Positions 10,238 through 51,142 of a stretch of DNA of 52,446 nt are shown here, piece by piece. The notes beneath the pieces were generated by a model. The model did no database searches. It was not told the DNA's origin and saw only the letters and a list, made by a program, of their open reading frames with translations. Source of the stretch: Nevskia sp. (GTDB lineage Bacteria > Pseudomonadota > Gammaproteobacteria > Nevskiales > Nevskiaceae); the NCBI GenBank assembly GCA_028291705.1, contig JAQGNS010000538.1:1-52446 (forward strand), read 5' to 3'. Every line of letters begins with the position of its first letter. The stretch's first letter is position 1. The translations under genes were made by a program, and so were the position numbers.

Positions 10238-10314
10238 CGGGGCGTAGCTCAGCTTGGTAGAGCGCTTGCTTCGGGAGCAAGAGGTCGCAGGTTCGAATCC
10301 TGTCGCCCCGACCA
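10238..10314 (+). tRNA. tRNA-Pro (anticodon CGG), integration target
   Basis: 77 nt with encoded CCA. Acceptor strands CGGGGCG/CGCCCCG pair. Anticodon stem CTTGC/GCAAG encloses loop TTCGGGA, giving CGG. The last 49 nt (from 10266) recur exactly at 51094-51142, so the island is inserted at its 3' end and the tRNA stays whole. Confidence 0.97.
10266..10314 (+). repeat. attL core: 49-bp direct repeat of tRNA-Pro 3' end
   Basis: The 49 bases from the anticodon stem to the terminal CCA of tRNA-Pro(CGG) are identical, with no mismatch, to 51094-51142. The match breaks at 10265 (C versus G) and after the CCA. This is the expected duplication at a tyrosine-integrase site in a tRNA gene, and the integrase starts about 110 bp inside. 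Confidence 0.9.
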
Positions 10315-10389
10315 CCTTTAGTATTGTTTTTACTCATCTTTTTGATGAGGCGCGAACCCATTCCCTGCTGTAAAATTTTTCCTGCGTGC

Positions 10390-10411
10390 AATATCTGCAC
10401 TCCATCTGCAC
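10390..10411 (+). repeat. Left candidate integrase arm site (two ATCTGCAC boxes)
   Basis: Two ATCTGCAC boxes lie 11 bp apart, start to start, roughly one helical turn. The 22-bp block matches 50957-50978 near the right end at 21 of 22 positions and in the same orientation. It sits between attL and the integrase start. The role as an arm-type integrase binding site is inferred from position and repetition. Confidence 0.6.
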
Positions 10412-10421
10412 TCGGGGAACG

Positions 10422-11606
10422 ATGGCGTCGATTAAAAAACGCGAACTGGTGCGTGCCGATGGGAAGCGCGTAACGAAGTACGACGCGTGCGTGACAAAAA
10501 AAGGCGCGCGTCGTCAGACTAAGACTTTCACCACGAGAGCCGCGGCCGAGAAATGGGCACGGCGCGTTGAGGGCGACATCGAGGCGGGCAGCTGGGTAGA
10601 TCAATCTGCCGCACAGCTCATGACGGTAGCCCGCGCGCTCGACATTTACCTGGTCGAAGTTGTCCCGCATCTCAAGTCACAGGACGCTTTGCCCTACCAG
10701 GCAAAGAACATCAAACGTCGACTTGGAAACCGCCCACTTTCCTCACTGACGAGCGCCGACTTGGCGGAGTATCGGGACGATCGCCTGAAGGACCGTGCGC
10801 GCCGTGGCACCGGCCGCAAGGACGGAGGCACAGTCGAACTGGACCGCCTCGTCTCTCCGCAGACAGTGAAGCATGAGCTGGGGCTCGTGAACCTGGCGCT
10901 TGCCCACGTTGAACACGCGCACAACGTCTCATTCCCGCGTGGGCGACCGCATTTGGACCATCGCCGGAATAACGCGCTTTCGCTACCGCCTGGTCGCGAT
11001 CGGATTCTCGATGCCGACGAAAAGGTGCGCTTGATGGCCGCCTGCACGTCCAACCAGGTTACGTCGGACGAGAAATACGCGGGCCTCAAGACCGCACGCA
11101 ACCCGATCTTGCGCAATGCCGTCGAATTCATGATTGAGAACGCAAACCGGCCTGGCGAGGTGGTGGTTTTCCGTTGGCGCGATGCCAACTGGCACGAAGG
11201 TACCGTAACTTTCAAAAATAAGAAGAAAAAGGCGAGTAAAACCCCTGAGACACGCACCTTTCCCATGTCGCCTCGAGCGCGCGAGATCCTGGAGTCGATG
11301 CCAGGGGCGCGCAAGCCGGATGCTTTCGTGTTTGGTGGCATCACCAGGTCGGCCCTCTACCAGGCGTTCCGAAGGGCCCTAAAGCGCGCGAAGATCGAGG
11401 ACTTCTCTACTCGTGATCTTCGGCACGTGGGCGCAACGAGGCTTGCCAGCGTCCTCAAGGGCGACTTACTAATGCTGGCCGACATCACCGGCCACAACGA
11501 CATTCGCTTGCTTCGCCGCTACGTTGCGCCGCGCCGTGCCGAGATCAGTAAGCTGCTCAACGACGCACCACCGGCGATCCAACAAGCTGCCCAAGCTGAA
11601 AAATGA
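10422..11606 (+). CDS. int: Site-specific tyrosine recombinase / integrase
   Basis: 394 aa. It excises and integrates the island at tRNA-Pro(CGG). The start at 10422 (MASIKK) follows GGGGA; the in-frame upstream start at 10386 would run through the ATCTGCAC repeats and is less likely. Catalytic residues in order: Arg243 in NRPGEV, Arg334 in RDLRH, His358 in ITGHND and the nucleophile Tyr367 in RRYVA. The first position of the HxxR box is Arg here rather than His, a known variation. The Lys-rich KNKKKKASK segment corresponds to the beta-hairpin lysine region. Residues 1-100 resemble the arm-binding and SAM-like core-binding regions. It is transcribed away from attL into the island and is followed by a strong hairpin. 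Confidence 0.92.
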   Translation: MASIKKRELVRADGKRVTKYDACVTKKGARRQTKTFTTRAAAEKWARRVEGDIEAGSWVDQSAAQLMTVARALDIYLVEVVPHLKSQDALPYQAKNIKRRLGNRPLSSLTSADLAEYRDDRLKDRARRGTGRKDGGTVELDRLVSPQTVKHELGLVNLALAHVEHAHNVSFPRGRPHLDHRRNNALSLPPGRDRILDADEKVRLMAACTSNQVTSDEKYAGLKTARNPILRNAVEFMIENANRPGEVVVFRWRDANWHEGTVTFKNKKKKASKTPETRTFPMSPRAREILESMPGARKPDAFVFGGITRSALYQAFRRALKRAKIEDFSTRDLRHVGATRLASVLKGDLLMLADITGHNDIRLLRRYVAPRRAEISKLLNDAPPAIQQAAQAEK

Positions 11607-12207: not shown

Positions 12208-13194
12208 ATGTCCGGCGCGCCACCTACGCTGGAATCCGCTGGGCAACTGGATCTGTTCAAGGCGAAATATGACGATGCGCCACTCAGATCGGACATTTTT
12301 TCGCTCGAACATCCGTTTTTCGTGCTGTCAAAGCAGCGGTTCCAGAAAGTCAGAGTGTACGAGTACGAATACAAAGACAAAAACAAACAAAGTGTCCGGA
12401 TTGAAGTCATTCCTCTTGTGAACATTGGTGCTCCTACGCAATGGGACAAAGACGTATTGATCTACGCCCAGGCGCAACTGACGGAGGGAATTAAGCTCGG
12501 ACAAGCACCAAGCCGCACTTTGAAATTTAACGCCCACGCCTTTCTGACTTTCACGCGCCGAGGCGTGACAGGTCGTGACTACAACCGACTGAAGGCGGCG
12601 CTGACGAGATTGAGGGGGACGACAATTCGAACTTCGATCAAGACTGGAGGCAAAGAATCCATTGAAGCATTTGGGTTCATTGAGCAGTTCAAATGGCAGA
12701 GTTCAAGCGGCACAGAGTGCGCACATATCGAAATTACACTCTCAGAGTGGCTATATAGGGCGGTACTGCAACACCAGGTGCTCGCGCTAAATAAAAGGTA
12801 CTTCGAACTTGGTGGGGCACTTACTAGGCGGCTCTACGAAATCGTTCGGAAGCACTGCGGCACTCAACGTAAGTGGGCTATCGGATTTGAACTTCTTCAG
12901 CGAAAAATTGGGAGCCAGAATAGCGCAAAAAATTTCAAGCACGAACTGAAGGTATTGGTTGATGGCTTGAGGCAAAACGGCCGACATATCGACAGAACTG
13001 CAAATCTCTCTCGCGCGTCCTCCCCATGTGGGCAACATGGCGTGCTTCTCGACTACATCATTTGGCTTCCTCCACGGCAGGAGGTTCTAGTTGCGTATTT
13101 CGGTGACCTTGGACGGGACGCCTTTGCAAATGACCTGAAACGGACGCGGGTGAAGTTCTTATCAGAAAAGTCCGATGCGGAAGATGGCTTATGA
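12208..13194 (+). CDS. repA: Plasmid replication initiator protein A (RPA family)
   Basis: 328 aa. The sequence matches my memory of the replication initiator protein A family (PF10134) found on broad-host plasmids and some islands. Seen here are an N-terminal LDLF start, HPFFVLSK, the WDKDVLIYAQAQL region, KFNAHAFL and the LNKRYFELGGALTRRLYEIVRKHC segment typical of the winged-helix core. Such proteins bind iterons near their own gene and start plasmid replication. The gene follows the HTH gene without a gap. Iteron-like repeats begin at its stop codon. On an integrated element it would allow the excised circle to replicate. Family assignment is fairly firm; activity is not shown. Confidence 0.82.
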   Translation: MSGAPPTLESAGQLDLFKAKYDDAPLRSDIFSLEHPFFVLSKQRFQKVRVYEYEYKDKNKQSVRIEVIPLVNIGAPTQWDKDVLIYAQAQLTEGIKLGQAPSRTLKFNAHAFLTFTRRGVTGRDYNRLKAALTRLRGTTIRTSIKTGGKESIEAFGFIEQFKWQSSSGTECAHIEITLSEWLYRAVLQHQVLALNKRYFELGGALTRRLYEIVRKHCGTQRKWAIGFELLQRKIGSQNSAKNFKHELKVLVDGLRQNGRHIDRTANLSRASSPCGQHGVLLDYIIWLPPRQEVLVAYFGDLGRDAFANDLKRTRVKFLSEKSDAEDGL

Positions 13195-26891: not shown

Positions 26892-29953
<3,062 letters not shown>

Positions 29954-29957
<4 letters not shown>

Positions 29958-31354: not shown

Positions 31355-31369
31355 CGAACGACCTGCGCA

Positions 31370-32053: not shown

Positions 32054-32266
32054 TTATTGGGCAAGTCGGAAATTCGACAGACGCAATTAGGCCTCTGTTT
32101 TTCTTCGCTATTCAGCTGGCCTCCGTGGTGAAATATAAAAATGCGCCCTTTCTTTAATCCACCCATGCTTGTCGGAAGAGCTTCCACGACTGACGGGTTT
32201 CGCTCTGATGAACTGAAACATTAATTGGTACAACCGCAACAGATTTTATTTCTCAGTGAGGATAAA

Positions 32267-35200
32267 TTGGACCGTAAGCGCGAACTTGGACCGGTTGGCC
32301 CTCCAGTTGCCGTCAGGTTCGACAACAACTGCGCTCCGCTCCCTACGGAACTGGTAAAGGCGCAGGAAAAGGGCGAAGTGGTTGTAATTTGTGGCGCAGG
32401 TGTTTCGAGGACCGTTGGTCTACCGTCGTTCCTGGATTTGGTGAAGGGCATTTATTGCGATCGGAACGAAAATTGGGACTCGCATCCTGCAGAGCGCGCA
32501 GCGATGGAGCCCGGAGCGGGTCAGATGCTCGACCGTGCCGTATTCGCCCTTCGGTTGCGCCTAGGTGGGCGTGATCGACGAACAGAGCATCAAGCTCGGG
32601 CAAACATCCTTGCTGCAGTCCAAGCCCAGCTTGCTGCGCCCGCACAGTCCGTCGCGCTATCGAACCACCTAAGTCTCCTACGTCTGTCTAGGGACGCTGA
32701 AAGGCGGCCTTGCCTGGTGACTACAAACTTCGACACTTTGTTTGAACGATCTTGGATGGCATACAAAGGGACCGAGTTGCCAAGTCGAGCGTGTGCCGAC
32801 CTTCCTGCTCCCCGCTCGCCCGATTTTCATGGAGTTCTGCATCTTCACGGTCGGATATCGGACGAAGTTCTCAACTTGCCTCGGACCGATATTGTTTTAG
32901 ACAGCGCCGAGTTTGGGGAAGCCTATCTGCGATCAGGATGGGCGGCGCGCTATGTTTACGATCTCGCGCGCGCCGTAACTGTGGTTATTGTCGGCTATGG
33001 CGCCGACGACCCTCCAATGCGGTACTTGCTTGAGGTGCTTACAGCCGACCGCGCGAGATTTCCTGATCTACGAGAAATCTACGCATTTGTCTCGACTGAC
33101 CCGATGCCAGAAGCACGATCAGAAAAGGAAGCATTGTGGAGGGCTAAAGGAGCAACGCCTATTCTCTACGATAGTACCGGACCCGCGGACCATGCTGCGC
33201 TATATCACACGCTTCAGACGTGGGCTGAATATTCCGAAAATCCAAAGTTGTGGTGGGGTCAAGAAGCGCAGCGTATTTTCGCTCTTGATCCAAGTACTTT
33301 AGGGGGCGACGATTGGGAGCGAATAAGATGGATACTGACTCGCGGCGACGGTATGCGAATTCTTGCGGAATCAAATCCATCACCGGCATGGGCCGTTCCA
33401 CTCTACCAAGAGGGTTTATTAGGGGCCGATGCAACTAACCCGGGTCCATGGATTCGTGCGAATTTGCATCAACGGGAGATGCTGCTCGCGTTAATTACGG
33501 GTTTTAAGGCTGATGCGGGACTGATTCAAGAACTTAATTTAGGGTTGGTCCAGCGATCCCTGAAATTGCAACCTCTTGTCGCACAGGCGTGGCGTCTCGT
33601 ATTCAGAGCTTGGACGCAAGCACTCTCACGGGGTGCCGCGGAGTGGTACGCAGCTTCGCACATGGTAGAAATCGGCGACACGTCCCTCGACGTGCGCCGC
33701 AGGATTGCCAGGGAATTGCAGCCCATTCTAGAGATTCGACGTCCATTCCAATGGTTCGCTAGGGGGGCGACGCAGGAGGATCCCGTCGACTCACTAGATA
33801 AATGGCTGCGAGTCGATTTTGAGATATCAACATATTTAAGCTTTGACGCTATTTTCTTGAAATGGCCTAAGGAAAAAGATTCAAGCCTTCTGCAAACCCT
33901 TGAGCGATGTTTGGAATCAACGTTGGAGGAGGCAGCCGACTGCGAGTTCGACAGACCAGGGTTCTCTCAATCAAGCAGTGACGTTCCTTCAATTGCTCCG
34001 CATCCGCAGAATCAGCATCGCCAAGGGTTCTTGCCTCTAGTCAGCGCGATTACCAAACTATGGGAGCGCCTTGCCACCAATGAGCCCGCTGCCGCCATTC
34101 GATTTGGTCGCCGTTGGAGTGAGTCGTCTTACGTGCTTTTTCGTCGATTGTGGCTCCACGCTTTAACCAACTCCGTTTTCCAGGCAGAGGACGCCGGCTC
34201 GGCTATTCTTGCGCTGACCGATGACGATTTTTGGTCGGACGAACTTCGGAGAGAGGCTATGCGGCTAATTGGGTCGCGTTGGCCGGAACTAGGAACTGCA
34301 CTGCGTGCTCAACTTGAAATGCGGATTGTCGAGGGGCCTCCGAGACGCTTATTCATTGACGACGCTGACCCATCTACTCTTAGAAATGTGATGTTGCATT
34401 ACTCTTTCGTGCGGTTGATGCGCATTGTGGCCTCGGGGTCACCGTTAAGCGCTACAGGGCGTATAGCTCTCACTAAAATTAAAGCCGAATATCCAACTTG
34501 GGAAACAGCGGAGGAAGAGAAGGACGACTTCGGGCGTTGGTCAGGGCGAGCGATGCACAGCGCCGGAGGAGATCCAACGCGCCTTGAAGGTGTGCCGGCC
34601 GAACGGCTCATTGAACGTGCTAGGGAACTCGCGCAAGCCAATGAATTCTCTCAAGGCAGTGTATGGCCGTTGTTTTGCCAAGCAGATCCTTCTATGGCAC
34701 TTGCAGGTCTTGTTTCAAAGCTCGATCAAGGTGAATTCGCGGAAAGAGAATGGAGCTCATTTCTTTGGAGCCAGCGGCTTAGCACTGATGTCGAGTTAGT
34801 TGCGCGCATTTTCGCGGCAATGGAACACCATAATTTCGTTGTAGATGATTCGCAGGATGCCGCGGTTGATTTTATGGTTGAACAATTCTCTCGCATTCGG
34901 TCTCTGCCAGAAATGCCGAGTCGATTTTTGGCCCTATGCGATCGAGCAACTGATCAACTTACCAGTCCACACCGAGCCGTGGTGTTGCAGCTCGATCAGG
35001 ATTTGCCGAACCGCGTTCTCGGCCGAACGGAAGGGCGGCTGATAGCGCTAATCGTAAAAGAATTGCAGGAACGTGATATTGCCGGTGGCGCGGGATTTCC
35101 TTCTGACATTCGAAACTTGCTGGACCGCCTGGCTAACGCATCTGGAGCAAGCGGCATCATCACCCGTGTGTCGATGAGCTATAACTTGCCATTTTTCCAT

Positions 35201-35953
35201 TCTATAGACCCGGACTGGGTCGAAAGTGCATTGGTTCCACATATGACTTGGGCTGATCAGCCTGGGAGGGCTATGTGGAATCTGTACGTCCTAAACAATG
35301 CAATTGGACTAGCGAGGCTGTTTAATAAGTTGAAGCCAACGCTGCTCGATGGCTTTAGCCAAATCGGATTAAATGACGATACGCTTGGGGGCTTGGTCGA
35401 TCGACTCTTACGTGTTTACGCCACAATAGTTAGACATTCGCCGCAAAGCTATTTGCTTTTGAGCCGAGAGGTGAAATCCGCTTTAGCTCAAGGCGGCATC
35501 AGAGCCCTTCGTGTCGCCGCGTTCGAAATTGCTCGAGGGATCTTGTCGAGTCTCGACCGTGAGGAGGCTTGGAGCGAATGGGCGGCCCCGCTATTCCAAC
35601 AAATCTGGCCAATGGATGCATGCTTTCAAGACCAGGTTGTTACGCGTGATCTCGTACGCTTGGCACTAAGTGCGCGAGATTCTTTTCCAGCGGCCATCGA
35701 CATTCTGGCTCCAGCTATGACTCATGTAGATCGAGGAATTGGGATGTGGTTGTCATCGGACCAAGGATATACAGAGACCGCAGAGAAGTACCCGAAGGCA
35801 ACTATGAAATTGTTCTATGCGGTGACAGATCGCAACGCGCCGCCAGACGACTTAGGTGCTTGGCTAGATAGGCTGCTCTCAATTGATCCATCATTGTCGG
35901 CGGCCTTGAATACCGACGCATTGTTAACCGCCGTGCGCAGGGCGGGAGCGTAA
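32267..35953 (+). CDS. SIR2-domain protein, probable anti-phage NADase
   Basis: 1228 aa. TTG 32267 is chosen because GTGAGGA lies 5 nt upstream; an in-frame TTG at 32225 has no ribosome site. Residues 30-290 form a SIR2-like fold: GAGVSR at 43-48, TTNFD with Asn154, HLHG with the catalytic-type His194, and VVIVGYGADDPPMRYLL. The remaining 900 residues are largely helical with no motif I know, like the sensor regions of defence-associated sirtuins, which deplete NAD+ when they detect phage proteins. GC content is visibly lower than the flanks, suggesting separate acquisition. No partner gene is adjacent on the same strand, so it may act alone. Defence is inferred; NADase-type residues are seen. 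Confidence 0.8.
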   Translation: MDRKRELGPVGPPVAVRFDNNCAPLPTELVKAQEKGEVVVICGAGVSRTVGLPSFLDLVKGIYCDRNENWDSHPAERAAMEPGAGQMLDRAVFALRLRLGGRDRRTEHQARANILAAVQAQLAAPAQSVALSNHLSLLRLSRDAERRPCLVTTNFDTLFERSWMAYKGTELPSRACADLPAPRSPDFHGVLHLHGRISDEVLNLPRTDIVLDSAEFGEAYLRSGWAARYVYDLARAVTVVIVGYGADDPPMRYLLEVLTADRARFPDLREIYAFVSTDPMPEARSEKEALWRAKGATPILYDSTGPADHAALYHTLQTWAEYSENPKLWWGQEAQRIFALDPSTLGGDDWERIRWILTRGDGMRILAESNPSPAWAVPLYQEGLLGADATNPGPWIRANLHQREMLLALITGFKADAGLIQELNLGLVQRSLKLQPLVAQAWRLVFRAWTQALSRGAAEWYAASHMVEIGDTSLDVRRRIARELQPILEIRRPFQWFARGATQEDPVDSLDKWLRVDFEISTYLSFDAIFLKWPKEKDSSLLQTLERCLESTLEEAADCEFDRPGFSQSSSDVPSIAPHPQNQHRQGFLPLVSAITKLWERLATNEPAAAIRFGRRWSESSYVLFRRLWLHALTNSVFQAEDAGSAILALTDDDFWSDELRREAMRLIGSRWPELGTALRAQLEMRIVEGPPRRLFIDDADPSTLRNVMLHYSFVRLMRIVASGSPLSATGRIALTKIKAEYPTWETAEEEKDDFGRWSGRAMHSAGGDPTRLEGVPAERLIERARELAQANEFSQGSVWPLFCQADPSMALAGLVSKLDQGEFAEREWSSFLWSQRLSTDVELVARIFAAMEHHNFVVDDSQDAAVDFMVEQFSRIRSLPEMPSRFLALCDRATDQLTSPHRAVVLQLDQDLPNRVLGRTEGRLIALIVKELQERDIAGGAGFPSDIRNLLDRLANASGASGIITRVSMSYNLPFFHSIDPDWVESALVPHMTWADQPGRAMWNLYVLNNAIGLARLFNKLKPTLLDGFSQIGLNDDTLGGLVDRLLRVYATIVRHSPQSYLLLSREVKSALAQGGIRALRVAAFEIARGILSSLDREEAWSEWAAPLFQQIWPMDACFQDQVVTRDLVRLALSARDSFPAAIDILAPAMTHVDRGIGMWLSSDQGYTETAEKYPKATMKLFYAVTDRNAPPDDLGAWLDRLLSIDPSLSAALNTDALLTAVRRAGA

Positions 35954-36770: not shown

Positions 36771-38270
36771 TTACCCGGGCTCAGCAGCCCCTTGGATGAG
36801 GTCCAAGGCATCTCGATATAAGAATGGCACCCAAAAGGATGGCTCTTGTTTTTGCCCTCGAACCTCAAAGAGACCTATGTCGGCGAGTGCCAGCGCGCGA
36901 ACTGTTGCTTCCTCTGGCGATAGTTGCCAGATATCCGAAAGGGTCTGAGGGGTCTGCAGCGTCTTCTCCCCACGTAACTTCTCGATCCAAGGTTTCAGCT
37001 CCGCCTGTTCGGAATAGATAGTCTGCTCTAGCCTTACTTTGGATACCTCCGGCAGGGCTTCTTTGAATGCTCCTCGCACAAACAAAAGCTCGCCTTCTGG
37101 CTCAGAATCGCCATGTTCCAAGCGCTTGACCTGAATCTCGCGCAAGCTATTCATCATGTGAATCAACTCGCGTGGGGCGTTGACCTGCTTACCATCCCGG
37201 GTTCGGCTCAACAGCCAATCCAAAGTTGTTGACTTGCTTGGGCCTACGTCCACTTGCTCTGGGCAAAGGCGATAAAAGAAGTTCTCTTGATCCTTCACCG
37301 GCTCCGTTGCCAGAGTCACGTCCACGGTGTACGCATTTCGGATCGCTTCGTTGTGGACCGCCCGCCTCACGAGAAGATTCAACAATGAATTTCTGTTCCA
37401 GTTGATGGTTACGTGCTTTGTGATGTGACTGGCTTCACGAAACCCGGCGCTAGTAATTCGCGCCCATATATCAGTACGCAGAAATATTTTTAGCTGAATT
37501 GACGAGTACTCGAGTAGATCTAGGTAGACGCGGAAGAGAGACCGCAGAGCGTTGATTTCGAGTGTTGTGTTCTCCGCAAAGGCTACGTCAAGCCGATCCA
37601 GCAAAATCCACGTTTTCAATTTGCTCTTGGACAAAGCGGAAGAAGCTAACGCTAGGAGACGATCTACAGATCGAAGTTCCGGATCTGGATTCTTTGCGCC
37701 AGGCTCGGCAAACATAATCTTGCCGGTGAAGCCGACAGGAAGCTGCGTCGTCGGATCAAGCTTCACTCCGCCTTCGATCGCCTGGGGATTTAGTGCCCGC
37801 CGTACATAGTCGCCAACAGCATGGAGAAGGCCGGTGAGCGTCAACGCGCCTTTAGTCAATCCTTCCCGTTCGAGTGCTGCACTTAGTTGTTTGCTCTCGT
37901 CTGTTGCAACGTTGTAGCTCCGAAGGACATCATGAAGAAGGACTGCGAAATACAGCTTCCAAAGGCCGATGAACTCACGTTCTGACGCCGGCGGGTCGGT
38001 AAGAAGGTCCCGAAATGCAGGAGCTCCACGAGGATTTTCGGCTGGCACTAGCAACACGCTGCGGTCGAAAAGTTCACTGCTCTTTGACAACAGCAAGGAA
38101 TAAAGAGCGCTCTTGCCGGCGCCTTTGGTTCCATAAACAATGTCTATGTCCCCGCGGTACAGCCGATCCCAGATGTCCGTCTCTACGAAGTACGTAGACA
38201 GGGTGTCCGTTTCTTCTTCCGCGACACGGTGGCCAAAGGTAGTTGCTCGTAGCAAATCCCGTTTTGACAT
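36771..38270 (-). CDS. P-loop ATPase, probable defence or regulatory NTPase
   Basis: 499 aa. Walker A GTKGAGKS is at residues 47-54, and a Walker B-like strand TWILLDRLDVAF is near residue 230. The N-terminus (MSKRDLLRATTFGHRVAEEE) and layout recall the Sll1717-type/ORC-like P-loop ATPases often found in defence islands. The C-terminal part (about 330-499) is probably a helical and winged-helix-like region; LSDIWQLSPEEATVRALALADIGLFEVR resembles a small HTH. No membrane segment is seen. It is convergent with the SIR2 gene but 817 bp away. A functional link between them is possible but not shown. Confidence 0.75.
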   Translation of the reverse strand: MSKRDLLRATTFGHRVAEEETDTLSTYFVETDIWDRLYRGDIDIVYGTKGAGKSALYSLLLSKSSELFDRSVLLVPAENPRGAPAFRDLLTDPPASEREFIGLWKLYFAVLLHDVLRSYNVATDESKQLSAALEREGLTKGALTLTGLLHAVGDYVRRALNPQAIEGGVKLDPTTQLPVGFTGKIMFAEPGAKNPDPELRSVDRLLALASSALSKSKLKTWILLDRLDVAFAENTTLEINALRSLFRVYLDLLEYSSIQLKIFLRTDIWARITSAGFREASHITKHVTINWNRNSLLNLLVRRAVHNEAIRNAYTVDVTLATEPVKDQENFFYRLCPEQVDVGPSKSTTLDWLLSRTRDGKQVNAPRELIHMMNSLREIQVKRLEHGDSEPEGELLFVRGAFKEALPEVSKVRLEQTIYSEQAELKPWIEKLRGEKTLQTPQTLSDIWQLSPEEATVRALALADIGLFEVRGQKQEPSFWVPFLYRDALDLIQGAAEPG

Positions 38271-42147: not shown

Positions 42148-42252
42148 GCTGTGGGTAGGCTGTGCGCAGCAGCACCAGCTCTGTCCGGCCCCCTAGAAGG
42201 GCCGGCGCTGGTGCGGTCGGCGAAGCCGAGCTGTGCATGGCCTATCCACAGC
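42148..42252 (+). repeat. ~100-bp palindromic intergenic repeat, copy B
   Basis: Outer arms GCTGTGGGTAGGC and GCCTATCCACAGC pair; inner blocks CAGCACCAGC, GGCCCCCT, GGGCCGGCGCTGGTGC and GGTCGGCGAAGCCGAGC form further hairpins. It matches copies at 22618-22720 (inverted) and 48302-48400. It lies between convergent genes, where it could end transcription in both directions. Confidence 0.8.
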
Positions 42253-43064: not shown

Positions 43065-44135
43065 ATGACAACTCAAAGCTCTCCCTCGACGCCGACCACG
43101 GCCGTACTCAAAAGGCTTTTTGCAGTTTCGGGGAATCGATGCGCGTTTCCCAAGTGCGAACACCGTCTAGTTCAGCAGGACACCCTGATTGGCGAGGTCT
43201 GCCACATCAAGGCGGCCAGCGACAACGGGCCAAGAGGCGATGTCAGCCTGCCGCCTGAGCAGCGGCATAGCTACGAAAACCTGATTTTATTGTGCGCAAA
43301 TCACCACACAGTGGTTGACGATGACCCCGAGGCGTACACGGTCGACCGTCTGCTCAAGATGAAGAAGGACCATGAGGCGCGCTGGGCTACAGAGCCGAAT
43401 GGGGATTCCGAACGTGGAGCCCAGTTGCTCCTTGCTCAACTAGTGAGCTCGAATGGTCAATCTGGCGGGATCACGGCGCATACCGTCCACCAGGTCATCA
43501 ACGTGCATGCGCCAGCGGAAAACGCGCCGGACGACGTGTCGCGCAAGCAAAGGGAAGCGAGGCGTGCACTGGCTCCGGAATTGCAGCGCACCATCGAGCG
43601 GGCGCTGTACATTCACGGTCGCGCGATGGCAAATTTCATCTGCCACTCTGCAGAGAACGACATCAAGCCCAACGACAGGAAGCAAGACTTCATTCCCTAC
43701 TGGCCCAGCTTGTACCCGAATGCTCCGCAGGTTCGTGATCTGCATGATGACGATGTTGCTGCGCTGGCTGCGTTTTATGATTCCCTCACTGCGCTGAACG
43801 ATCAGGTAAATGATTGGTGGGAGCGTGAGGGACAGATGCCGGTCAATCTCTTCAACGTGTTTAGAGACTCCGCGTCAAAGAGTCTAAAGCTCGGCCTAAC
43901 GTGCATTGAGAAATTCGGAGTGGAACTATTTCGGCCCGAATACGAATCGTGGGGCAGCCTCTCCGACCGAATAAATCGGTCGTTAGCCTCCGAGAAAAGT
44001 GCCATGGAACATCACCTCAAGCGCTTTGAGGCGAAACGGGTTCAGGATGAGGGGCAGCGGGCGCTGGCCGCGGCGCAAAGAATGAAGGGGCCGCTCACAA
44101 CCAGCTGGCCACCAGGTGGCCCTCGTAGGAAGTAG
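43065..44135 (+). CDS. HNH endonuclease-domain protein
   Basis: 356 aa. The N-terminal 90 residues are an HNH domain with zinc ligands: Cys26 and Cys31 (CAFPKC), His47 in EVCHIKA, Asn72 in ENLILLC, Cys77, and His80-His81 (ANHHTVVD). A linker with a GITAHTVHQVINV segment follows, then an alpha-helical C-terminal region (about 155-340) rich in charged residues and without known motifs, probably a sensing or protein-interaction domain. HNH nucleases fused to helical domains are common effectors in defence islands. It is a separate lineage from the HNH protein at 25060. No methylase is adjacent. Confidence 0.8.
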   Translation: MTTQSSPSTPTTAVLKRLFAVSGNRCAFPKCEHRLVQQDTLIGEVCHIKAASDNGPRGDVSLPPEQRHSYENLILLCANHHTVVDDDPEAYTVDRLLKMKKDHEARWATEPNGDSERGAQLLLAQLVSSNGQSGGITAHTVHQVINVHAPAENAPDDVSRKQREARRALAPELQRTIERALYIHGRAMANFICHSAENDIKPNDRKQDFIPYWPSLYPNAPQVRDLHDDDVAALAAFYDSLTALNDQVNDWWEREGQMPVNLFNVFRDSASKSLKLGLTCIEKFGVELFRPEYESWGSLSDRINRSLASEKSAMEHHLKRFEAKRVQDEGQRALAAAQRMKGPLTTSWPPGGPRRK

Positions 44136-45091: not shown

Positions 45092-46015
45092 CTAGAGTCG
45101 ATCTGCTACCCATCGCTCTAGACCAAGCCTGACGACCAGTTCCGAAATTCGGGTTCGATCCCAAACTTGAATGGGCTCCCCAGCTGGGGCTTGGAGAATG
45201 CCTTGCGGGGTATGGACAACAAAAATCATGCGTGCGTAACGCGTGCGCTGTCTGGCAAATCGCTTCACGTAGTCATCCAGAATAGCCTGGGCCGCAACGC
45301 TTTTTACCTGCACAAACGCGATTTCATCCACGGCAGCATTTTGAACCTCCAAGTCAACGCCCTCAGTATTACCACCCAATACACCGAGGCGTAGCCAACC
45401 AGTGCGCGTTAGGATGAGATCAGTGAGGAGTTCGAAGTCTTGGGGTGAGAGCCTGGCCACGAGTACCGAAACTGCCGTTTCGTATGTTTGGCGTGCCTTC
45501 GTAGCTGCGAGCGCATCGGCATCTTCTTCACCCTTGATGATGCGCAGCGCCTCCTTAGCGCCACCTGGCGTGCAGACCGTTGCTCGAAATCCTGCGGTTG
45601 CAGTCACTATGCCTGGAAGGTTGCCGGTAGCCAAGTGCCGGCCGGTGACAGATTCACACCGCCAGGGTAGTGCACATTTGAGCCAAAAGTGACCTTCGGT
45701 TTCCGATTCCCTTAAGGGATTTACAACTACACCGTCCTGGACGGTGCACCACCACATGCACCCTTCGGCGAAGGTCATCCAAATATGCTGGCTCGGGCGA
45801 ACGAGCAGATCACATAGCGCGTTGAATTCCTGTGTGGCACCGCGAATGTCTGTCGGAAGCGCTTCTATTGCGCCGACATCCGCTTTCTCAATGAGATCTG
45901 CGGGTACTTTTCTCCAGCCGCAATGTACTTCGCTGCGGCTCTTGGCTGCACCCCACCATTTCCCACCTTTGCCACTTTTAACGTAGCGGATGCTGGACGG
46001 AAGGGTTGTGTTCAT
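45092..46015 (-). CDS. Restriction-endonuclease-fold protein, second gene of Mrr pair
   Basis: 307 aa from ATG 46015 (MNTTLPSS), 10 bp after the stop of the upstream nuclease gene; a start at 46057 inside that gene is also possible. The C-terminal third has the PD-(D/E)xK form: GVDLEVQ at 219-225 then FVQVKS with Gln236-Val-Lys238, and a following VKRFARQRTRYARMIFVVH helix-strand. The N-terminal 190 residues (HIWMTFAEGCMWWCTVQDG, FWLKCALPWRC) are Trp/Cys-rich and unfamiliar, perhaps a substrate-reading domain. It is almost certainly co-expressed with the Mrr-like nuclease. Specificity unknown. Confidence 0.7.
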   Translation of the reverse strand: MNTTLPSSIRYVKSGKGGKWWGAAKSRSEVHCGWRKVPADLIEKADVGAIEALPTDIRGATQEFNALCDLLVRPSQHIWMTFAEGCMWWCTVQDGVVVNPLRESETEGHFWLKCALPWRCESVTGRHLATGNLPGIVTATAGFRATVCTPGGAKEALRIIKGEEDADALAATKARQTYETAVSVLVARLSPQDFELLTDLILTRTGWLRLGVLGGNTEGVDLEVQNAAVDEIAFVQVKSVAAQAILDDYVKRFARQRTRYARMIFVVHTPQGILQAPAGEPIQVWDRTRISELVVRLGLERWVADRL

Positions 46016-46025
46016 AAGCTGCCGG

Positions 46026-48275
46026 TCATGACCTTGCTTCCATTGTTCGTGGATCAATAAGTGTAGCGCCGCCTGTAGGCTCTATACGCATCAAGCGTAG
46101 TTCGATGCCCTGCGCAAGCGCCAGATCAGTCGCGCCTTTCGTGAAGTCACTGGTGGTAACGAGCATGCCGCGAGTCCCTGCTGGGCTCAATGTTATCGTC
46201 CCCAGCAACTCGCGCAGCACGGCAGGCCCAATCTTCCGAGCGGCCGAATAGCATTTGCACTGAATAACCCACGTCAACGCGCTGATGTGTTCCTCTGCCA
46301 GGAGGTCAATACCATTGTCGCCGTTCTTTGCCGAGGCCACGTGGTCGACGGTGAAGCCTGCGGCCTGGAGCAACCCTTGTACGTCTCGCTCAAATTTGAA
46401 CCATTCGGATGGAACGCCACCGGACACCGTGGCCGCCTCACCGTAGAGTGACTGGAGCGCGGATCGGCTGCGGTAGATAACTTCACGGTCCGCAACGATG
46501 CCTCCCCGCTGGTGTGGCCGCACAAAGGTATGTCCCTCGGTGACTTTTAGCCCGTAACGCTCCGCAAGCATTACTTGGCTTGGCTTTGCATGGTCGGCCT
46601 TACGCAAGTGGGGCTTGACGTGATGTGAGCGACGAGAAGCGTAGTCGAGCCGTTCTTCCAGCCTGGCGGTGGCTGGCCCGTGTTTGTAATCGATCTTTGG
46701 GATATAGACGATCAGCGGAGTCGACGGGTTGCCTTTTACTTGCGGTCCAGTGGTGCGCCGGGTTTCAAATACAGTCTCTCGAAGTTCAACTACAACGAAG
46801 TCGCGAACAATCGCGGTAATGATCAGCTGAAAGGCAACTTCCATTTCCAGCATCCACGGCTCGTCCTCTTTTTTGCCCAGGTGCTTCTTGTTGTCATCTC
46901 GCACCAAATGCTCTAGGTTCCAAGCATCCTTACGAAGATTAAATGCGGCCCAGCGATACTCTCCGGCTTCCGTCAGCAATAAGATGGAAATTTCATCGCC
47001 GAATGGAAAGAACTGGATCTCCTTGAAGGGGCCGATTGCCAGCTGAACGCGAGCGGCCCAGGGGATCGTCCACCTGTTTAGAATGTTCGCTTCGTCAGTC
47101 AGAGTTTGAATTGCACGGCGCGCATCCTCGACGCTACAGCCTAAGCAGACATTCTGAATCTCAGGACGCAGCGCTTTGAGAGACGCTGGTTGCAACTCCA
47201 GGGCGATGACGGCGCCGCCAAATTGCGTGAACTCCGATGGCGTGTTAGGCCAGAAATCGCGCGCCTGCTCCGCAGTCCGGCCCACCAGAGGAAGCGGTCG
47301 GATTTCCTTGTGCCTGGTGTGAGGATCGAAGGACGCGATTTTGCGGCCGAAATCCGTGTCCCGATCGTTCATGTTTGCTGCGTGCATAAGCGCGGCGATC
47401 GCCCACCGCCATTCATGGAGTGGGTTGATGTCGCCCTCAGCCGCGGGGTCACCAATTATGGCCGCGAGATCCCATGGGTCCACGCTGCGTACATAGTCCA
47501 AAGTAGATTCGCGTCCTTTCAGAACCTCGATTAGGCGCTTGACAACCGTATTCCACATCTCACGGGTCCAACTCAAACCCCTGTCACAAACCAGCCTCTG
47601 GTACGCCGCTTCATCAGCCTCAAAAAGCTCATCTAAATAAGTCTTGCCCTCACCGGCGGGCAGCGCTCTAGTCGACGTCATTTCTGCGAGCTTCAGTCGG
47701 AAAACGTCAATCCAACCGATTTGAAGCTGGTCTTCTGGTCGCAACAAAGAATCCCAGGCGCTCGAAATTGCAAAAGACTCCAGGTGCCCGAGGGTATGGT
47801 CGATCTCAAGACGCTGGCCCCATGGCCTATGCACATCAGTCTCGCTTTGGGTGAGGTGGGCAATGGCGTCCTCTACTTGGCTCTCCTTGAACTCTAGCCG
47901 AATCATTCTTATTGGAGCGCCGTTGTAGACGGTGACCATCGGAAGGATGCGGTTCTCAACGAGTTGTGTGTAAGCGGCGTGGTCGACCGGGAGCCAGGCA
48001 CGGGCTATCCACCCGGACCCCTCGACGGCAAAAGTGAGCGTAAGGCCACTGCCGAATGCGCCATCCCAGCGAAAACAAAAAGCGGCCCTGACACCTTCGG
48101 ACAAGCGAAGCGAAGGAAACTTCACTCCTAGTGTCCAGTCGCCGATCTCGGCGAGCGCCCCTCTCAGTCGATGCTGGGCCTGAGTCTGTTGAGCAAGGGC
48201 GCGCAAGCGCACTAGGTCGACGCCAGACTTTGCCACCGGGACGGAGGACCCAGCCAAGGTAATAATTTTGGTCAT
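46026..48275 (-). CDS. Mrr-family restriction endonuclease, large
   Basis: 749 aa. ATG 48275 (MTKIITLAG) is chosen; the longer frame to 48473 would translate the palindromic repeat copy C. The last 130 residues are a clear Mrr catalytic domain: FERDVQGLLQAAGF, NGDNGIDLL (Asp near 657), IQCKCY (Gln672-x-Lys674 pattern), then GMLVTTSDFTKGA and a final LALAQGIELRL. Mrr enzymes cut methylated or otherwise modified DNA. The first 600 residues have no motif I recognise and are far larger than the N-terminal DNA-binding domain of E. coli Mrr. Together with the next gene it forms a two-gene operon with two nuclease-fold proteins and no methylase. Confidence 0.82.
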   Translation of the reverse strand: MTKIITLAGSSVPVAKSGVDLVRLRALAQQTQAQHRLRGALAEIGDWTLGVKFPSLRLSEGVRAAFCFRWDGAFGSGLTLTFAVEGSGWIARAWLPVDHAAYTQLVENRILPMVTVYNGAPIRMIRLEFKESQVEDAIAHLTQSETDVHRPWGQRLEIDHTLGHLESFAISSAWDSLLRPEDQLQIGWIDVFRLKLAEMTSTRALPAGEGKTYLDELFEADEAAYQRLVCDRGLSWTREMWNTVVKRLIEVLKGRESTLDYVRSVDPWDLAAIIGDPAAEGDINPLHEWRWAIAALMHAANMNDRDTDFGRKIASFDPHTRHKEIRPLPLVGRTAEQARDFWPNTPSEFTQFGGAVIALELQPASLKALRPEIQNVCLGCSVEDARRAIQTLTDEANILNRWTIPWAARVQLAIGPFKEIQFFPFGDEISILLLTEAGEYRWAAFNLRKDAWNLEHLVRDDNKKHLGKKEDEPWMLEMEVAFQLIITAIVRDFVVVELRETVFETRRTTGPQVKGNPSTPLIVYIPKIDYKHGPATARLEERLDYASRRSHHVKPHLRKADHAKPSQVMLAERYGLKVTEGHTFVRPHQRGGIVADREVIYRSRSALQSLYGEAATVSGGVPSEWFKFERDVQGLLQAAGFTVDHVASAKNGDNGIDLLAEEHISALTWVIQCKCYSAARKIGPAVLRELLGTITLSPAGTRGMLVTTSDFTKGATDLALAQGIELRLMRIEPTGGATLIDPRTMEARS

Positions 48276-48301
48276 GCTGTGATTATGGCCCGGGTTGGGC
48301 G

Positions 48302-48400
48302 CGGTGGGCAGGCGGTGTGCGGCAGCACCATAGGCCGGCCCCCTAAATGGGCCGGCGCTGGTGCGGTCGGCAAGGCCGAGCCGTACACTGGCTGTCCACG
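48302..48400 (+). repeat. ~100-bp palindromic intergenic repeat, copy C
   Basis: It aligns with 42148-42252 over its length (GGTGGGCAGGC, GGCAGCACC, GGCCGGCCCCCT, GGGCCGGCGCTGGTGCGGTCGGC, GCCGAGCCGT, GGCTGTCCAC blocks). It lies in the 175-bp gap between the divergent Mrr gene and the gene at 48451, so here it is close to promoters rather than terminators. Confidence 0.8.
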
Positions 48401-48450
48401 GCAAGTTCGGCCAAGTGTCGGTTTGGTATCTGTAGTGGAGTGATAGGCAG

Positions 48451-49056
48451 ATGGGCGAAGCTAAGCGACGCAAGGCGGAAATCGAACGCCAAAAAAATGA
48501 AGAGCTGGCATGGCGAGCCTCATTGAGCCCGGAGCAAAAGATCTCTGCAGACGTGGCGATGAGAGCCCACGACCGGATCGTCAGGGCGTTGAATTTGCGA
48601 GAGGCGTGCTACCAGATGGCGCTGTTTTTGAACCAATGCCTCCGCGAGCTTCACCAGGTAGAGACTGAAGCCGTCATAGGATGGATCAACGACGGCACCT
48701 GGGAGGGAGTGGCTTCCCACGCCTGGATCGAGCTGGGCGGCAAGAAAATCGATATTTCGCTGACACATACCAGCCATCGTGATCCACAGCCATCCGGCGG
48801 CCTACTGATCCTCGATCGTCTAGTAACAAAGGGGGCAGCGAACTACTCCTACTACAAGGAGCAGCCGCAGTCTGCAATCGAATACCTGAATAAATTAAAG
48901 GTGGCCAGCCCGAAGGCGATGGAAATAATGGCCCAAAAAAATAAGCAGCACCAGATGTTTGAGGGTATCGCCCGAGATCCGGAGCGCATCCACCTGTATC
49001 TCAACAGTGCCCCGTCGCCGACTCGGTACGATGCACTGCTGCGCCTCATGTCCTAA
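48451..49056 (+). CDS. Hypothetical protein with transglutaminase-like triad, 201 aa
   Basis: The start MGEAKRRKAEIERQK is a common basic N-terminus of small cytoplasmic proteins. The middle contains REACYQMALF (Cys), ASHAWIELGGKKIDIS (His and Asp in the spacing of transglutaminase-like cysteine proteases) and a C-terminal helical region. The Cys-His-Asp order fits a papain/transglutaminase fold, but I do not recognise a specific family. A GGAG lies 10 nt before the ATG. It is divergent from the Mrr operon and may share its control region. Confidence 0.6.
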   Translation: MGEAKRRKAEIERQKNEELAWRASLSPEQKISADVAMRAHDRIVRALNLREACYQMALFLNQCLRELHQVETEAVIGWINDGTWEGVASHAWIELGGKKIDISLTHTSHRDPQPSGGLLILDRLVTKGAANYSYYKEQPQSAIEYLNKLKVASPKAMEIMAQKNKQHQMFEGIARDPERIHLYLNSAPSPTRYDALLRLMS

Positions 49057-49117: not shown

Positions 49118-49756
49118 TCAACTGCTGAAGGTTTGTAATTTATAAAATCTACAAAGATCATCGCCTGCTTCAACGACGGCGCGCCAAATGAGGTCGGTTA
49201 TTCCATATGGATGCTGGGCCGCTTCCAGCCATTCAACCATTTTCTCCGCATCAACTGGCCTGTATTCTGGGATTTTTCCCTTGTTAAATCCATCTAATTG
49301 CAATAAATGCGAAGCGGTAAGTCCTTCGACATACCATAGCGAGCAGTTGACTGGCTGGGCATTGGGGAGATTCTTGAGTTGAAGTGCCACTTGCCTGTCT
49401 GAAAGTGTATTGCTCTGTACATGCACATTGAGGTGTCGCAGAAGTCTAAAAATATGCGGCAACGGCCACTGGTTTCCGCGCACGCTGAATTTCGAGAACT
49501 GCCGGTCACCCTCCTGTGTTGCTACATCTTCAATTGATACATATTCGGCAAGGCTTGCTCTGAAATAGAGTCGAGCCGCCTCATGTTCACTTGGCTGAGC
49601 AAGACTGAGCTTGTGTGCAAAAGTAAGAGTGCCATTAAGGCGCTCAAGAGTTGCCGGAAGAAACTGACGGAGAAGGCGCTCAATTGGTTCTGCGAGACAT
49701 TCAAACGTAGGCGTCCAGGTCGCGATATGCGGTTTGAAATCGAGCGTACGCTGCAT
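49118..49756 (-). CDS. Hypothetical protein, 212 aa
   Basis: A soluble protein with no recognised motif. Features include FECLAEPIERLLRQFLPATLERL, a helical middle, and WPLPHIFRLLRHLNVHVQ. The C-terminus (VEWLEAAQHPYGITDLIWRAVVEAGDDLCRFYKL) looks helical and amphipathic. It lies 32 bp downstream of the partition RHH gene on the same strand, so it may be read from the partition operon, but base composition is lower in GC. Role unknown. Confidence 0.55.
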   Translation of the reverse strand: MQRTLDFKPHIATWTPTFECLAEPIERLLRQFLPATLERLNGTLTFAHKLSLAQPSEHEAARLYFRASLAEYVSIEDVATQEGDRQFSKFSVRGNQWPLPHIFRLLRHLNVHVQSNTLSDRQVALQLKNLPNAQPVNCSLWYVEGLTASHLLQLDGFNKGKIPEYRPVDAEKMVEWLEAAQHPYGITDLIWRAVVEAGDDLCRFYKLQTFSS

Positions 49757-49788: not shown

Positions 49789-50025
49789 CTAAGCTGTGCG
49801 TGTAGTTTTGCGGTGCTGGAAGCACTCTATCAGCAGTTCGTTGAGCTTCATGTCGCAATCGAGCGCCTCGCGCTTGAATTCCTTAACAAATGCTGCGGGC
49901 AGCTTGAAGTTGAGACTGTCCAACTCCGCCGATGGCGGAACACCTCGCTGACGCATCGGGGCTGCGCCAGGCGCCGGCTGAGGGTTCAGATCTTCGCTAG
50001 TAAGGGGTTGCGCAAGCTTACCCAT
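49789..50025 (-). CDS. ParG-like ribbon-helix-helix partition protein
   Basis: 78 aa. The N-terminal 35 residues are flexible and Pro-rich. Residues 37-71 (DSLNFKLPAAFVKEF then KREALDCDMKLNELLIECF) have the strand-helix-helix pattern of Arc/MetJ/CopG dimers. This layout and length match ParG (76 aa) of plasmid TP228, which binds its centromere and stimulates the ParF ATPase through its N-terminal tail. The ATG lies within the parA stop region (ATGGGTAA), so the two are translationally coupled. The octamer array at 50687-50870 is the likely binding site and operator. Confidence 0.75.
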   Translation of the reverse strand: MGKLAQPLTSEDLNPQPAPGAAPMRQRGVPPSAELDSLNFKLPAAFVKEFKREALDCDMKLNELLIECFQHRKTTRTA

Positions 50026-50677
50026 GAGTCACTTCCTCCTCGAGCACAGCTGCACGTGTCCTCGGAATACAACTTTGAACCTCCGTCCACAGTGCGGCAA
50101 TTTCATCCGCGGCGGCGCCCTTGGGCGCCAGTTCGGGTGCTGTCCGCCCGCCCGTCATTGCAACTGCGTAAGCGACGCGATCCGCGATGAATGACTGCGC
50201 GATCCGGCCGTGTCCCGACAGTGCAGCGACTGTTTGTGCGGTAATGTTGGCGTGGGCTTTTGCCTGCGTCATGATGAACAGAAACGGCTTTCCTACCTGC
50301 TTTACCAGTCGAACCGTTTCCGCCACGGCCCAAAGGTCCGCCGGTGACGGCCGAACAGGGATCAACACTAGATCGGCCAAACGCTGCAGCTCGGAGCTTT
50401 GATCCGAAATGGTCGGTGCGGTGTCGATGAAGCAGATCGCCGTTCCTTGGTGTTTCTGTTTTGCCAGGCCGGCGGCGAGCTGGTGAAAGGGAAATGGTGC
50501 GCGCTCTGGTGAATCTTCCTCACGCCGATCGTGCCAACGTGAGAGGGTCGCTTGCTTGTCCATGTCTATGACGCATACCGGGCCGGCGCCAGATCTCCCA
50601 GCTTCGACTGCCAGGTGCGCCGTCAGAGTAGTTTTGCCGCTGCCACCTTTTTGAGACGTGATTACTATGGTTTTCAC
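50018..50677 (-). CDS. parA: ParA/ParF-type partition ATPase
   Basis: 219 aa from GTG 50677 (MKTIVITSQ), with AAGGTGG upstream. The longer frame to 50830 is an artefact of reading through the octamer repeats. It has the deviant Walker A KGGSGKTT near residues 10-17, the Walker A-prime Asp in VIDMDKQATLSRW, and Walker B FIDTAP. It lacks the N-terminal HTH of type Ia ParA proteins, so it belongs to type Ib with ParF, which polymerises or forms gradients to move plasmids. Its presence with an RHH partner and repeats implies the island has an extrachromosomal phase that needs segregation, in line with repA at the other end. Confidence 0.9.
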   Translation of the reverse strand: MKTIVITSQKGGSGKTTLTAHLAVEAGRSGAGPVCVIDMDKQATLSRWHDRREEDSPERAPFPFHQLAAGLAKQKHQGTAICFIDTAPTISDQSSELQRLADLVLIPVRPSPADLWAVAETVRLVKQVGKPFLFIMTQAKAHANITAQTVAALSGHGRIAQSFIADRVAYAVAMTGGRTAPELAPKGAAADEIAALWTEVQSCIPRTRAAVLEEEVTHG

Positions 50678-50686
50678 GAAATCCAC

Positions 50687-50870
50687 CTTTCGAGTTTGTG
50701 GGCTTTCCCGAAATAGAGCTTTCGTTCCTTCGGGCTTTCCTACTGTCGGGCTTTCTGGCATCCTATCTGTCTGGCTTTCGTGCCTTCTGCCTTTCTGGCC
50801 ATCTGGCCTCCGGGCTTTCGAGCCTTCCAACTTTCTGACCTTCGAGCCTTCTAGCTTTCTGGCTATGAAG
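50687..50870 (-). repeat. Candidate centromere: 23 octamers in strict 8-bp register
   Basis: Starting at 50687, every 8 bases begin a unit close to CYTTCKRG (CTTTCTGG, CCTTCGGG, CTTTCGAG and so on). Exact CTTTC words start at 50687, 50703, 50719, 50735, 50751, 50775, 50791, 50815, 50831 and 50855, all separated by multiples of 8. Position 1 is C in 21 of 23 units and position 5 is C in 20 of 23. It ends 9 bp before the parA start. The parH site of TP228 also has short boxes at 8-bp spacing, bound by ParG. Centromere and operator roles are inferred. Confidence 0.8.
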
Positions 50871-50956
50871 AAGGGCGGAAATTGTGAAGGGCAGAAAACG
50901 GTTTCGCGGTTAATCCCGTTTTCCGGTTTTAACGAAAGCCCGAAATGCAGGTTGAT

Positions 50957-50978
50957 AATATCTGCACTCTATCTGCAC
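50957..50978 (+). repeat. Right candidate integrase arm site (two ATCTGCAC boxes)
   Basis: It matches 10390-10411 at 21 of 22 positions in the same orientation and lies 115 bp inside attR. Two ATCTGCAC boxes are 11 bp apart. No gene is seen from 50871 to 51093. Confidence 0.6.
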
Positions 50979-51093
50979 AGCAGGCGGTATCAAGCGGTAG
51001 TTTCAGTGAACAATCGGTAACCGAATTTAGACGTAATGGTAGTTAATTCAATAACTTGCTCGCAGTGCCGAGGCGGCTAAAAGTTACAAGCCG

Positions 51094-51142
51094 TTGCTTC
51101 GGGAGCAAGAGGTCGCAGGTTCGAATCCTGTCGCCCCGACCA
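51094..51142 (+). repeat. attR core: 49-bp copy of tRNA-Pro 3' end
   Basis: Identical to 10266-10314. No D-arm or acceptor 5' strand precedes it, so it is not a tRNA gene. A TTTTTT run right after it (51144-51149) is probably the original tRNA-Pro terminator, now separated from its gene by the island. Confidence 0.9.

Follow-up and report, generated by a model that had tools for sequence, protein, structure and literature searches.

A two-way array of 8-bp boxes upstream of parA, probably the centromere and operator of a ParF/ParG-like partition system on an integrated plasmid-like element of Nevskia sp.

Results and Discussion

In a stretch of 52,446 nucleotides from Nevskia sp. (assembly GCA_028291705.1, contig JAQGNS010000538.1, forward strand; the window, by which we mean the whole stretch analysed), 23 contiguous octamers lie immediately upstream of a two-gene operon, parA-rhh, which encodes a small ParA ATPase and a 78-residue protein of the ribbon-helix-helix (RHH) type. 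We conclude that this array very probably acts in cis for a partition system of type Ib, resembling ParF/ParG, on an integrated plasmid-like element, where it would serve as both centromere and operator. The boxes form a lattice that keeps one 8-bp register in both orientations as far as the parA start, and the same spacing recurs upstream of parA in relatives. The features on which the argument turns are the following.

50685..50868, minus strand: direct block of 23 contiguous octamers, defined by the lag test and the unit profile
50869..50948, plus strand: inverted block, with boxes at 50869, 50885, 50893, 50933 and 50941 in the 8-bp register of the array
50669..50684: two more register matches over the parA start, at 50669 on the minus strand (TGAAAACC) and at 50677 on the plus strand (CGAAATCC)
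50966..50993, minus strand: promoter-like TTGATA-16-TAGAGT upstream of the lattice
50018..50677, minus strand: parA, 219-aa ParA ATPase with a GTG start (NF041546, CbiA, AAA_31, PDB 4dzz)
49789..50025, minus strand: rhh, 78-aa RHH protein, presumed centromere-binding, overlapping parA by 8 bp

The array and its register

Over 50685-50868, identity at a lag of 8 bp was 0.562, compared with 0.287 (standard deviation 0.033) in 1000 dinucleotide-preserving shuffles, none of which scored as high. Equal peaks stood at lags 16, 24, 32 and 40, each again reached by no shuffle, and among the lags from 1 to 39 that are not multiples of 8 the maximum was 0.39 (lag 20, 5 of 1000 shuffles). Outside the array, the best 184-bp stretch of the window reached a lag-8 score of 0.381. 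The word CTTTC occurs ten times between 50600 and 50900 (at 50687, 50703, 50719, 50735, 50751, 50775, 50791, 50815, 50831 and 50855), each time in the same 8-bp register. An initial annotation of this DNA had described the 184 bp as 23 octamers without a gap on an 8-bp period, with ten CTTTC words on a single register; both statements are borne out, and the autocorrelation that it put forward as a check does peak at 8 and its multiples.

The consensus proposed there, CYTTCKRG, describes much of the array, with 8 of the 23 units perfect, 7 matching at seven positions of eight, 3 at six, 4 at five and 1 at four; matches of at least six positions make up 1.9% of island octamers on the plus strand. 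It does not describe all of it, as unit 50709, inside the direct block, fits the inverted box and units 50693 and 50861 are poor. In the parA direction the box reads (A/C)GAAAGC(C/T), with core column counts of G20, A20, A18, A14/G7 and G21 over the 23 units, and 19 units score at least 4 against a profile made from those same units. Adjacent octamers are never identical; the spacing alone is exact. The octamer nearest parA overlaps the AAAGGTGG ribosome-binding sequence.

The parA frame stays open across the array (50018-50830) up to a TTG at 50830, and the array could on this ground be read as coding for an N-terminal extension of ParA. We set this reading aside as having next to no likelihood: in 14 relatives the ParA, taken from its own start codon, starts at the corresponding residue, in most cases with MKT, and a ribosome-binding sequence stands before the GTG.

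The extent of 184 bp first given to the array proved too short, since the register runs on, with boxes of opposite orientation as far as 50948 and weaker ones over the parA start. In the two flanks (50560-50684 and 50869-51092), all 10 matches scoring at least 4 on either strand fall in the array register; of 2000 regions of 340 bp drawn at random from the island, five or more matches occurred in 1696, and in none of these did all matches share one register. At lower scores the in-register share was 10 of 13 (score 3) and 11 of 20 (score 2), the off-register matches lying mostly past 50960, where 1 of 4 (score 3) and 1 of 8 (score 2) were in register. The two boxes at 50669-50684 are partly under coding constraint. 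Toward parA, the order runs from the inverted block through the long direct block to the boxes over the ribosome-binding sequence and start codon, and the same order of inverted and then direct block is found at loci L095 and L231. Across 22 relatives, multiples of 8 bp separate 45 of the 82 same-orientation box pairs no more than 120 bp apart, and 35 of the 68 opposite-orientation pairs have the single offset found in the window, both counts including the start-codon box, which is itself coding; this is the spacing that tandem, near-two-fold-symmetric dimers on 8-bp slots would be expected to give. The promoter-like sequence at 50966..50993 is a weak match (one found, 0.5 expected by chance) and would place the array within the parA 5' leader.

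The partition genes

The initial annotation called the 219-aa product a type Ib ParA, and its features agree: it is of the roughly 200-residue class, has a deviant Walker A motif (KGGSGKTT) and has no N-terminal helix-turn-helix or other DNA-binding domain. It matches NF041546 over the full profile (residues 3-199, E 7.6e-48, 162.8 bits, under the curated cut-off of 180 bits) and CbiA and AAA_31 above cut-off, and ParF (4dzz) is among its two best solved-structure matches (E 5.6e-11, residues 1-201 of 206). As in other type Ib systems, a small gene lies directly downstream with an 8-bp overlap, its assignment as RHH being of moderate strength, and short repeats, the presumptive centromere, lie upstream of the operon.

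The same annotation took the 78-aa product for an RHH protein of ParG size. The RHH assignment stands by way of relatives and of the predicted fold; no match to the ParG model was obtained. Alone, the protein had no sequence match in Pfam (at E 0.1 or E 1), NCBIfam or PDB, and it matched PHROG 6024, of unknown function, at E 7.6e-5. In an alignment with its relatives it shows the strand S-L-N-F-K-L, a helix and an M-K-L-N-E-L-L segment that the relatives share. In a further alignment, 6 of the 12 members match Pfam RHH_10, the window's own protein not being one of these six, and a query with the RHH of plasmid locus L029 retrieves that of the window at E 6.4e-4. The ParG family PF09274 was absent from the six families matched by the 12 members at E 1, its presence in the library not having been separately checked. 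In the AlphaFold model, helices at 44-56 and 61-77 are mostly above 90 in predicted local distance difference test score (pLDDT), with a low-confidence tail. The leading Foldseek matches are the RHH proteins StnY, CdbA (which we take to be of this type), Arc and CopG, with ParG at rank 29. Since neither the window protein nor the 12 aligned members match the ParG model, the evidence supports a protein that is ParG-like in role and layout and not a demonstrated member of the ParG family.

The N-terminal tail carries a motif, RQRG, that is common to the close relatives L004, L005, L006, L133 and L024. Two reports describe an arginine-finger-like tail motif by which ParG stimulates ParF (PMC5389482, PMC7308502), and by this analogy RQRG is a candidate arginine finger. 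A search for the RHH protein in 369 genomes of the class matched the window's own genome alone. Downstream of rhh on the same strand, 49118-49756 encodes a 212-aa protein that searches of Pfam, NCBIfam, PHROGs and PADLOC left unmatched at the limits applied.

Eight-bp spacing upstream of parA in relatives

From 80 ParA loci on viral contigs, 44 were retained after dropping those with less than 300 bp upstream or with ParA at least 60% identical to a representative. A lag-8 signal (p<0.02) lay upstream of parA in 23 of the 44, against 1 of 43, 1 of 43, 0 of 44 and 1 of 37 control stretches from the same loci, and 8 was the best lag in 25 of the 44 dereplicated regions. When the 80 loci were instead reduced to 71 distinct upstream regions by dropping those shorter than 120 bp or with duplicate upstream ends, lag 8 topped lags 5-13 in 41. 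Twelve of the first 26 regions, each 400 bp upstream of parA, had a lag-8 p of at most 0.015; these include the window, L031 and L142 (a pair whose scored array is one and the same), L050, which is AT-rich, and L003, whose signal is far from the gene. Both positive controls were recovered, namely the region upstream of parA in the mycobacteriophage RedRock (lag-8 score 0.715, 0 of 200 shuffles) and the ParFG upstream region (0.528, 0 of 200), the latter in keeping with the initial statement that parH shares the 8-bp spacing with boxes of the ACTC type. Because the spacing is enriched upstream of parA relative to controls and the positive controls were recovered, it belongs to this class of operon, though it is undetected in about half of the loci. 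The array of the window is the second longest of 94 upstream regions by one measure, these regions not being dereplicated.

In a further control set of 24 ParA homologues from other genomes, mostly inside long contigs, 2 passed, and 1 when 200 shuffles were used; that one, L050, is identical with locus L136, which belongs to the RHH clade of the window, and the set thus contains a clade member. The ParA homologues L033-L056, which are 41-44% identical to the window's, come from elsewhere in the phylum and lie mostly on long contigs, have no 8-bp arrays except at L050; they are possibly a chromosomal branch of the ParA family, apart from the plasmid-like clade member L050. Within the genus (18 genomes, including the window's own), the other ParA matches are distant, and the regions upstream of L002 and L011-L014 score 0.35-0.41, below the array cut-off of 0.45 and without a shuffle test. 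On Roseomonas and Lichenicola plasmids, L026, L145 and L147 have 8-bp arrays with a GCTNGC-like box within 250 bp upstream of a related parA. Among plasmid records as a whole, 3033 contain a ParA match.

Box sequence and RHH type

To name the residues of the RHH strand we used the contact residues of Arc, which we take to be Q9, N11 and R13. With the window-derived motif (A/C)GAARG, and omitting L004 as a near-copy of L003, phased pairs were found upstream of parA at 5 of 8 loci with an N-K strand, 1 of 7 with N-R, 0 of 6 with Q-R and 0 of 1 with G-K, compared with 0 of 76 other viral-contig ParA loci, which were not dereplicated and in some of which no RHH was identified. Same-strand pairs of this motif at distances of 5-29 bp in the 22 relatives occurred solely at 8, 12, 15 and 16 bp (8, 2, 2 and 4 pairs). 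A broader motif, picked after the relatives had been seen, gave phased pairs in 9 of 22 loci against 0 of 42; in its phased boxes the base before GAAA was always T at Q-R loci (4 of 4) and always C or A at N-R loci (7 of 7), and at N-K loci it was A or C in 20 of 21 cases. Locus L095 came up through its array pattern alone. That array has five units and lies about 1.8 kb past the RHH gene, and the locus proved to carry a like RHH strand, a set of boxes before parA and a ParA that is only distant (22% identical to that of the window). The octamer profile of the window correlated at 0.74 with that of L095, 0.76 with L231 and 0.68 with L029, against a top value of 0.67 among 40 arrays from other ParA loci on viral contigs; at L095 and L231 the RHH is related to the window's and the ParA only distantly so.

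Other observations limit how far this link can be taken. The loci L007 and L140 have an N-K strand but no phased boxes, the array of L233 has a different core (ACGAATTA), and the profiles of L025, L031, L144 and L233 do not stand above all 40 baseline arrays. The choice of the broader motif came after the relatives had been seen. Over 44 arrays (946 pairs, Mantel test, with RHH genes picked automatically) the correlation between RHH and box was weak at 0.16 (1 of 500 permutations), and it was -0.05 among the 836 pairs with dissimilar ParA. Mean box correlation was 0.61 for the 16 pairs with similar RHH and dissimilar ParA, many of them near-copies, compared with 0.43 for the 745 pairs dissimilar in both. 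A link between box and RHH is thus likely inside this clade, and a general RHH-box code is unproven.

The search for such arrays elsewhere, which the initial annotation had suggested, recovered L095 and little else of the kind. Five phased GAARG units were found at 70 loci on viral contigs, some from the same contig. In the DNA fetched, a related ParA-RHH pair is present at L095 alone, the ParA of L075 and L119 is distant, and L118 offers no more than an RHH-like open reading frame (ORF). Since 1 of 70 loci holds such a pair, the pattern cannot serve as a diagnostic on its own. A BLASTN search of plasmids with the array returned 3 rhizobial records; in the two viewed, plasmids pNK6d and pRi_1724 (L134 and L135), the similar 8-bp arrays are intergenic, near position 3000, with no annotated parA adjoining in the stretches shown. 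Arrays of 12-30 phased GAARG-like octamers, by a loose count, occur on viral contigs at L080, L098, L104, L113, L129 and others, with no related ParA in the DNA fetched.

That phased GAARG arrays are not rare, and that those viewed on rhizobial plasmids have no annotated parA beside them, would suit a neutral, microsatellite-like tandem repeat to which no protein binds. We consider this explanation very improbable and set it aside. Recent slippage fails as a cause, because no neighbouring units are identical despite the exact period; the flanking inverted boxes keep the register; and the position upstream of parA is enriched relative to controls.

Comparison with known partition sites

Partition sites of this kind are already known from TP228 parH, RedRock and pP62BP1. 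RedRock, a cluster A mycobacteriophage, resembles the window in having a ParA of 185 aa, a ParB of 89 aa downstream and 8-bp direct repeats that reach the parA start. Its sites parS-L and parS-R each have eight 8-bp repeats recognised by ParB, and the parABS system stabilises plasmids (PMC7157519). It differs in its box (TCGAGTNN), in having a second site behind parB, in its eight units per site and in being an actinophage, and its octamer profile correlates with that of the window at just 0.47.

The type Ib par locus of the Psychrobacter plasmid pP62BP1 has, by its published description (PMC3346939), 17 adjacent direct repeats of 8 bp, which are thought to separate the promoter from the ribosome-binding site of a 212-aa parA; a predicted RHH parB follows, and the authors regarded the arrangement as apparently unique. 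Compared on that description, its units are identical (AATACTCA) and its ParB has the ParG domain PF09274, unlike the window. TP228 parFGH shares with the window the size and sequence of ParA, an RHH partner downstream and upstream boxes on 8-bp spacing. The site parH consists of degenerate tetramer boxes with AT-rich spacers (PMC7308502); the ACTC boxes found there are not in the window, the profile correlation is 0.23, and the window RHH has no match to ParG PF09274.

The delta-omega-parS system of pSM19035 has an RHH protein on contiguous short repeats in both orientations, with at least four contiguous repeats required for full ParA activation (PMC9499535) and with partition genes transcribed from separate promoters (PMC5016525); the units there are of 7 bp and the plasmid is Gram-positive. 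Among the loci found here on viral contigs and plasmids, L095, L231, L029, L155 and L144 share with the window an RHH with a KLNELL-type helix, a P-L-N-F-(K/R) strand and phased (A/C)GAARG boxes before parA, and differ in having few boxes per orientation. What is new here is the box, the length of the array, the two-way lattice and the comparison across relatives; the site also has an RHH protein outside the ParG model. No family-wide 8-bp rule was stated in the titles and abstract openings of the literature searched, which mostly excluded subscription papers.

Function of the array

By analogy with the families to which the two proteins belong, dimers of the 78-aa RHH protein would bind (A/C)GAAAGNN octamers through their two-stranded sheet. 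As the boxes stand every 8 bp and either orientation occupies the same slots, dimers side by side could form a continuous protein lattice of about 35 slots from 50669 to 50948. On an excised, replicating circle this lattice would be the centromere: the RHH tails, with RQRG as candidate arginine finger, would stimulate ATP hydrolysis by nucleoid-bound ParA, and the presentation of many tails to it would position the element on the nucleoid. The same binding would repress parA-rhh, since the lattice covers the parA leader, the ribosome-binding sequence and the start; in the integrated state the site may serve for self-repression alone.

Coverage of the leader, ribosome-binding sequence and start would also be expected of an operator and nothing more, with the centromere elsewhere or the module unused for partition while integrated, and several relatives have just a few phased boxes at this place. 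We judge this unlikely, because 23 contiguous units and an inverted block far exceed the needs of an operator and the rest of the window showed no second phased cluster. The RedRock repeats, as parS sites of a plasmid-stabilising system (PMC7157519), argue in the same direction.

Some findings count against a combined centromere and operator. The closest ParA relatives (L004-L007, L024 and L133, 49-72% identical) have no long array, with lag-8 p from 0.085 to 0.99 in the 400 bp upstream; L003 has a p of 0.01, but at -355 and with lag 7 higher. The RHH model has a mean pLDDT of 73, DSSP assigns no strand to it as a single chain, and its Foldseek matches are all at E 0.4 or worse. At L006, L024 and L133 a few phased TGAAA boxes stand near the start codon.

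More broadly, we put forward tentatively, at somewhat less than even likelihood, that one 8-bp lattice of RHH dimers, reaching the parA start with both orientations in the same slots, is common to the small ParA-RHH systems found on plasmids, in phages and on integrated elements, and that the box drifts freely, following the residues of the RHH sheet and not ParA, such that in this clade N-K would go with (A/C)GAAA and Q-R with TGAAA. If this is true, the centromere and incompatibility group of an unstudied plasmid could be read from its RHH strand and an autocorrelation plot. The locus also offers a clear test case for the reading of DNA by RHH centromere-binding proteins, having one box, exact spacing, many units and both orientations in a single register. 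An arrangement described as apparently unique in the pP62BP1 report (PMC3346939) is here extended to about half of 44 diverse ParA relatives.

The integrated element

The partition module lies at one end of an element bounded by repeats of a tRNA gene end, with the following features.

10238-10314: intact tRNA-Pro(CGG) gene
10266..10314, plus strand: attL, the 3' end of tRNA-Pro(CGG)
10386..11606, plus strand: tyrosine integrase, 406 aa (Phage_integrase, E 1.3e-15)
12208..13194, plus strand: replication initiator protein A (RPA, PF10134, E 5.7e-66)
51094..51142, plus strand: attR, a 49-bp repeat of the tRNA-Pro(CGG) 3' end, just past the array

The integrase and the 49-bp tRNA-Pro(CGG) attachment (att) repeats that flank the element confirm the integrated island proposed at the outset. 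Between the repeats lie the integrase, replication initiator protein A, TraH, TraG, a TrwC relaxase and cargo genes; no further gene for a type IV secretion system or coupling protein was found among the 24 ORFs scanned against Pfam, smaller ORFs being outside the scan. A partition module makes sense here, because the element encodes a replication initiator, and the locus adds an integrated element with both replication and partition genes to the blurred boundary between conjugative plasmids and integrating elements. For SXT/R391, compare PMC4489591.

On an excised circle, by map arithmetic, which is not evidence of excision, the array and the initiator gene would be about 2 kb apart, with the att site and the integrase within about 2 kb. 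Related plasmids keep parA, rhh and a replication gene together, and in them the replication gene comes after rhh, whereas in the circle the initiator gene would stand on the side of the array. The short distance between array and initiator gene could suggest that the array is instead a set of iterons, a replication origin bound by the RPA initiator of the element. Initiator iterons are usually longer units than 8 bp, the 8-bp architecture is found upstream of parA in 23 of 44 relatives, and the box follows RHH type within the clade; we regard this alternative as extremely improbable and set it aside as well.

Several further features were noted in and around the element. An extra copy of a tRNA-Pro 3' end, possibly the scar of an older integration, lies at 9149-9204 between two tRNA-Pro genes. 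The cargo includes a 1242-aa SIR2-domain protein (32225-35953) that matches the anti-phage defence protein Dsr1 at E 3.6e-112, a 499-aa candidate defence protein (36771-38270) that matches PDC-M28C at 8.9e-17, and a candidate defence gene of the HNH type (43065-44135) that matches PDC-M68A (7e-34) and several endonuclease effectors. A possible DNA-damage cassette at 24029-32026 encodes an SRAP peptidase, a 1085-aa DNA polymerase III alpha-like protein that is DnaE2-like by its place, and a Y-family IMS-domain protein, and the usual place of ImuA is taken by a 218-aa protein that has no Pfam match. Near the par end, two adjoining Mrr-type restriction endonuclease-like proteins are encoded at 45092-48473. 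The cargo also holds an 84-bp repeat, 79% identical, at 42169-42252 and 48319-48402, and a 47-bp repeat, 96% identical, occurs at 44163 and 44984.

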